A DNA stretch of 64,000 bases from assembly GCF_023150065.1 (NCBI RefSeq), contig NZ_JAKLLN010000016.1, forward strand, positions 1 to 64,000. Reading direction: 5' to 3'. The translations under genes were made by a program, and so were the position numbers. The stretch comes from Zoogloea sp. GTDB lineage: Bacteria > Pseudomonadota > Gammaproteobacteria > Burkholderiales > Rhodocyclaceae. Positions 1 to 106 of the stretch are shown here, one piece after another. The notes under the pieces are model-generated. The model saw only the letters and a program-made list of their open reading frames with translations, was not told the origin of the DNA and ran no database searches. Position 1 is the first letter of the stretch. Every line of letters starts with the position of its first letter.

Positions 1-71
1 TTCACTTCGTTCGCTGTGATCAACTTACGGCGGGACTTCCACCCGCAGGAGGGCGCCCATGCTGGGCGCAC
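1..71 (-). mobile_element. Group IIC intron, 5' end (partial, runs off left edge)
   Basis: Read on the minus strand from base 71, the sequence opens with GTGCGCCCAGCATGGGCGC and continues through a GGGTGGAAGTCCC segment. This closely follows the start of the Oceanobacillus iheyensis group IIC ribozyme as I remember it (GUGUGCCCGGCAUGGGUGC, then GGGUGAGAGUCCCG). GUGYG is the group II 5' consensus. The insertion point lies directly behind the T-tract of a rho-independent terminator, the preferred target of class C introns. Only domain I begins in the window; the maturase/reverse transcriptase gene and domains V-VI would lie to the left. Intron identity rests on sequence similarity recalled from memory plus the site context. 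Confidence 0.85.
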
Positions 72-106
72 AAAGAAAAGCCCTTCCTCCGCGGGGAGAA
101 AGGGCT
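72..106 (-). terminator. Rho-independent terminator used as intron insertion site
   Basis: On the minus strand a 12-bp stem with one mismatch (arms 95-106 and 79-90, four-base loop 91-94) is followed by TTTTCTTT at 79-72. It lies 45 bases behind the stop codon of the gene at 152-436, so it is that gene's terminator. The group IIC intron begins at the very next base. Confidence 0.85.

Follow-up and report, generated by a model that had tools for sequence, protein, structure and literature searches.

Group IIC (class C) introns were reportedly found by Robart, Seo and Zimmerly in 2007 to be inserted after intrinsic terminators. Two reviews (PMC4424553; PMC3898094) give the same placement, with GsI-IIC as an example. 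According to the 2015 review (PMC4424553), bacteria seldom carry ORF-less introns, and the genomes that do nearly always contain related introns as well, whose proteins may act on them; mobilization in trans is described for the ORF-less TeI3 introns of T. elongatus (PMC2882425). A literature search on Zoogloea and group II introns, read at the level of titles, returned no paper on introns of this genus.

The window (the whole stretch of Zoogloea sp. DNA analyzed, 64,000 nt, G000:C77:1-64000) begins with base 1 at a contig edge in an assembly of 251 contigs, and the first 71 nt of a group IIC intron 5' end (positions 71-1, minus strand, starting GTGCG) run off that edge. On the minus strand GTGCGCCCAGCATGGGCGC reads from base 71 downwards and is followed by GGGTGGAAGTCCC. 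The T-run TTTCTTT (78-72, minus strand) forms the end of the 5' exon and the presumed IBS1 region, and is preceded by an intrinsic terminator stem-loop (106-79, minus strand; 12 pairs, seven of them G-C, with a loop of 4) that is the presumed target motif. Upstream of the terminator the ORF list contains a 94-aa ORF on the same strand (436-152), a flanking gene with no Pfam match. The preliminary description had read the start at base 71 as the opening of a class C intron set directly behind a terminator; both strings lie where it placed them, the repeats of this sequence carry intron parts, and hairpin, T-run and intron start adjoin without a gap. The hairpin and intron start together fold better than 200 of 200 shuffled sequences (z -3.35); the folding of the 71 intron bases alone is unremarkable (z -1.75, with 14 of 200 shuffles as good), and a terminator scan of bases 1-600, weak by itself, gives one site against a shuffle mean of 0.9. 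Group IIC introns recognize their exons through EBS1 and EBS3, with no EBS2; here a search by eye for an EBS1/IBS1 pairing found no consistent register. Rfam yields no match at gathering over the whole window, and in bases 1-500 the sole intron match is to RF02003 (14.1 bits, E 0.83) and is unusable, because the visible piece of intron is too short.

The same 5' end is present at seven places in the genome (contigs C77, C22, C184, C207, C188, C251 and C180) and is 100% identical over the comparable 63-71 nt, with upstream flanks that all differ from one another; this recurrence excludes chance for the 71-nt intron start. Six of the seven copies stop at a contig edge 63-75 nt inside the intron, a pattern typical of a collapsed repeat; the window begins at base 1 of its contig because the intron is repetitive. 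It is most improbable that the segment is a dead piece of 5' end, cut short so that nothing more of the intron remains at the locus: that only 71 nt are visible, at a contig edge, would fit this, but the shared breakpoints are those of a collapsed repeat, and synteny places a matching 3' end on C229 (below). There is no whole intron on any contig of this genome, and the C207 copy is the only one readable beyond the first 75 nt, for 565 nt with a gap of 10 Ns. In spite of this gap it matches RF02001 (group II domains D1-D4, read here at the level of group II) with 56.8 bits and an E-value of 6.2e-10, and the same 5' end also opens RF02001-matching introns in the congeneric genome G006.

The preliminary description had proposed to look for a covariance-model match, a reverse transcriptase (RT) ORF, a domain V with a 3' end, and an empty terminator in a sister strain. 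Base 1 is the contig edge, and these checks, carried out by indirect means, favour its reading. The first is provided by the C207 copy, and the second is recovered in two parts, again on contigs other than the window's. C174:1-420 codes for the C-terminal 140 aa of a group II maturase, with GIIM (75.8 bits) as its only Pfam match, and the C207 copy contains an N-terminal RT piece; the middle of the protein was not found in the assembly. Among solved structures the best relative of the 140 aa is the GsI-IIC RT (6ar1, 4.4e-22), and the full-length RT of a relative in Azonexus (L016) scores 447 bits to the GsI-IIC RT, 333 to 7uim, 138 to 6me0 and 123 to LtrA, with RVT_1 and GIIM as its only Pfam domains. 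Pfam finds no endonuclease domain in either the 140 aa or the L016 protein, and the genome is predicted to encode a class C RT/maturase of the type without one. A third hit, on C110 (43% to the IIC RT), is a different RT; this ORF (L141, G000:C110:88338-88991) matches RVT_1 with 148.8 bits, has no GIIM match, is the only hit of the retron RT model NF038233, and adjoins an ORF matching both IS66 and DDE_Tnp_1 transposase models. As judged by eye, another element seems to split the RT ORF of a related intron in Aromatoleum anaerobium (L036), shortly past the N-terminal part of that ORF.

The third element is recovered in part. On C174 the maturase end is followed by a domain V/VI match to RF00029, significant in the small search that gave it (161 bases, E 1.6e-6), but its score of 38.1 bits is slightly below the curated gathering cut-off of 40, and it is not listed at gathering. 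This D5/D6 region folds strongly (z -5.67) into two hairpins, the second with an unpaired UA, and its domain V triad reads CGC in the RF00029 alignment, a triad that we take to mark IIC introns. Eight 3' ends in the genome (on C174, C196, C207, C189, C177, C229, C122 and C173) show no difference over the 74-77 nt compared, and a ninth on C180 is 83% alike. On C180 a remnant of the 3' end of an ORF-less intron (L139, G000:C180:28373-28489) is next to what appears by eye to be a transposase remnant.

The fourth, the empty terminator, is present in a sister genome. The window flank (72-640) is matched in 22 of 40 genomes searched, our own included, and in the closest of these, G004, the flank runs up to L144:1965 with 92.5% identity, and the 3' flank of the intron end on C229 continues from L144:1971 with 90.5% identity and no intron in between. 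The stem-loop aligns with the terminator of G004, and the empty site joins at the T-run; it shows that an intron has been gained or lost here. The window insertion most likely has its other end on contig C229; the link between C77 and C229 rests on synteny, which is close in G004 and supported at lower identity by L150 and L152, in whose genomes both flanks are near each other (79-80% identity over the C229 flank). C229 encodes a phosphatidylserine decarboxylase (PF02666, 186 bits) in convergent orientation, with its stop codon one base from the intron end, and the insertion site lies between two convergent genes, this one and the 94-aa ORF.

With 5' and 3' ends, D1-D4, a maturase C-terminus and a domain V/VI match slightly below the gathering cut-off in the genome, and the sister site empty, we conclude that window positions 71-1 (minus strand) are almost certainly the start of a class C (group IIC) intron retroelement that this genome carries in several copies. 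Like GsI-IIC and other group IIC introns the element has a 5' GTGCG, a site made of a hairpin and T-run, and several copies per genome; elsewhere in the genome it shows matches to D1-D4 and, slightly below the cut-off, to domain V/VI, and an RT whose only Pfam match is GIIM. The window copy departs in nothing visible from this family and its site is usual for such introns, so it is an ordinary member.

The relation to terminators extends to relatives. An exact 19-mer of the intron start is present in at least 120 genome stretches, and among the matches listed 94 of 120 contain an AAGTCC core within 71 nt and 26 do not. We scored a flank as terminator-like when it had a home-made hairpin score of at least 18 and at least five Ts in its last 10 bases, leaving out 29 of the 120 relatives (the 26 without the core and three lacking 60 clean upstream bases). 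All seven 5' flanks in our genome, each a hairpin with a T-run, are terminator-like, and sequence and site agree with class C targeting as had been suggested at the outset; among the matches listed so are 81 of 91 relatives, compared to 6 of 907 random positions in the same loci. Some of the 10 relatives that fail have, by eye, a hairpin with few Ts. A GAAG/GGAAG core retains the seven copies of our genome and, among the matches listed, only 9 of 120 relatives, of which seven are terminator-like (random positions, 3 of 319). Insertion of a smaller fraction of IIC introns at attC sites is noted in the 2015 review (PMC4424553), and a group IIC-attC intron or other hairpin-targeting element could in principle occupy such a position instead of a terminator-targeting one; with a hairpin and T-run at every site in this genome and the window insertion lying between two convergent genes, we consider this very improbable. 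By analogy with the known family, the intron would be transcribed by read-through, its splicing would be aided by the intron-encoded RT/maturase, and the resulting RNP would reverse-splice into a new site, just past the hairpin of a different terminator, and be copied into DNA there.

Intron sequence visible for the window insertion amounts to 71 nt at C77 and the 76-nt 3' end at C229, which would fit a copy with or without an RT. Going by the length of RT-bearing relatives, it probably extends for about 1.8 kb up to the C229 3' end. Alternatively, the copy could lack an ORF and be a non-autonomous IIC mini-intron of about 650 nt, or several introns could be stacked behind the window terminator, with RT-bearing copies mobilizing them in trans. 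The case for this comes largely from G006, which we take to be a Zoogloea metagenome-assembled genome. The first 227 nt of the intron are matched in 10 of 23 genomes of the genus, our own included, and G006 has 14 matches, 13 units of which were examined. Eight of these are 643-653 nt long and give no match to the L016 RT by tblastn. Four of the eight, located at three places, agree in 653 of 653 bases, and the rest are 93.5-96.2% similar to them. The remaining five units have RT matches (one of 1834 nt, one of 1838 nt, two incompletely covered and one divergent), and for three of these units the match is split into several pieces in that assembly. Units also occur end to end, as short, short and RT-bearing in L183 (G006:C4:50000-53500), as short and short in L184, and as short and RT-bearing in L185. 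Each of these three stacks has one terminator, and the unit nearest to it is in every case RT-less and about 650 nt long; units of L183, L184 and L187 match RF02001. One short unit (L184:1446-794) has a 3' end like that of the RT-bearing units, so the 3' ends of our genome are compatible with a mini-intron too, and C180 holds the remnant of an ORF-less 3' end.

Against this, the only copy in our genome readable beyond 75 nt, that on C207, carries an RT N-terminus, and a search with the ORF-less body matches just the C180 remnant there, with two candidates scored per genome. The same search over 369 genomes drawn from the class, again with two candidates per genome, gave matches in 40, our own included; those listed with a match do not include G006, and outside our own genome all but one of the listed matches run from query position 144 on, around domain V/VI. 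No stacked intron junction was found in our genome by an exact pattern, which across the genus occurs at two places in one of 23 genomes, both in one G006 stack, and in none of 399 genomes sampled across the order (G006 not among them). This pattern misses two of the three known G006 stacks and repeats break assemblies, so its absence says little. On balance we regard a mini-intron or stack at the window site as unlikely, and prefer a single RT-bearing copy of ordinary length.

The T. elongatus introns, which we presume to be IIB, offer a parallel to the short units of G006. In G006, as for TeI3 (PMC2882425), RT-less short derivatives outnumber RT-bearing ones (8 vs 5 of the 13 G006 units), but the T. 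elongatus introns form nested twintrons, whereas those of G006 are of IIC type and follow one another directly behind a single terminator. It is conceivable, though we think it quite doubtful, that RT-less IIC mini-introns of about 650 nt in this genus depend on RT-bearing relatives and can accumulate behind a single terminator, and that the contig break conceals a stack of this kind at the window site. Such accumulation might occur if insertion leaves the hairpin and T-run intact so that the target is reloaded, or alternatively if the D5/D6 hairpins of the resident intron act as a new target. A limited literature search by title and start of abstract found no stacked IIC introns, and we do not claim that they are unreported.

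For the window itself, the assignment explains the contig break at base 1; beyond that, it contributes a further copy of an intron class that is already well known. The stacks of G006, which lie outside the window, are the one unusual thing and deserve a separate look: a genome with both RT-bearing and RT-less IIC introns together with stacks would allow testing whether an occupied terminator stays a target.
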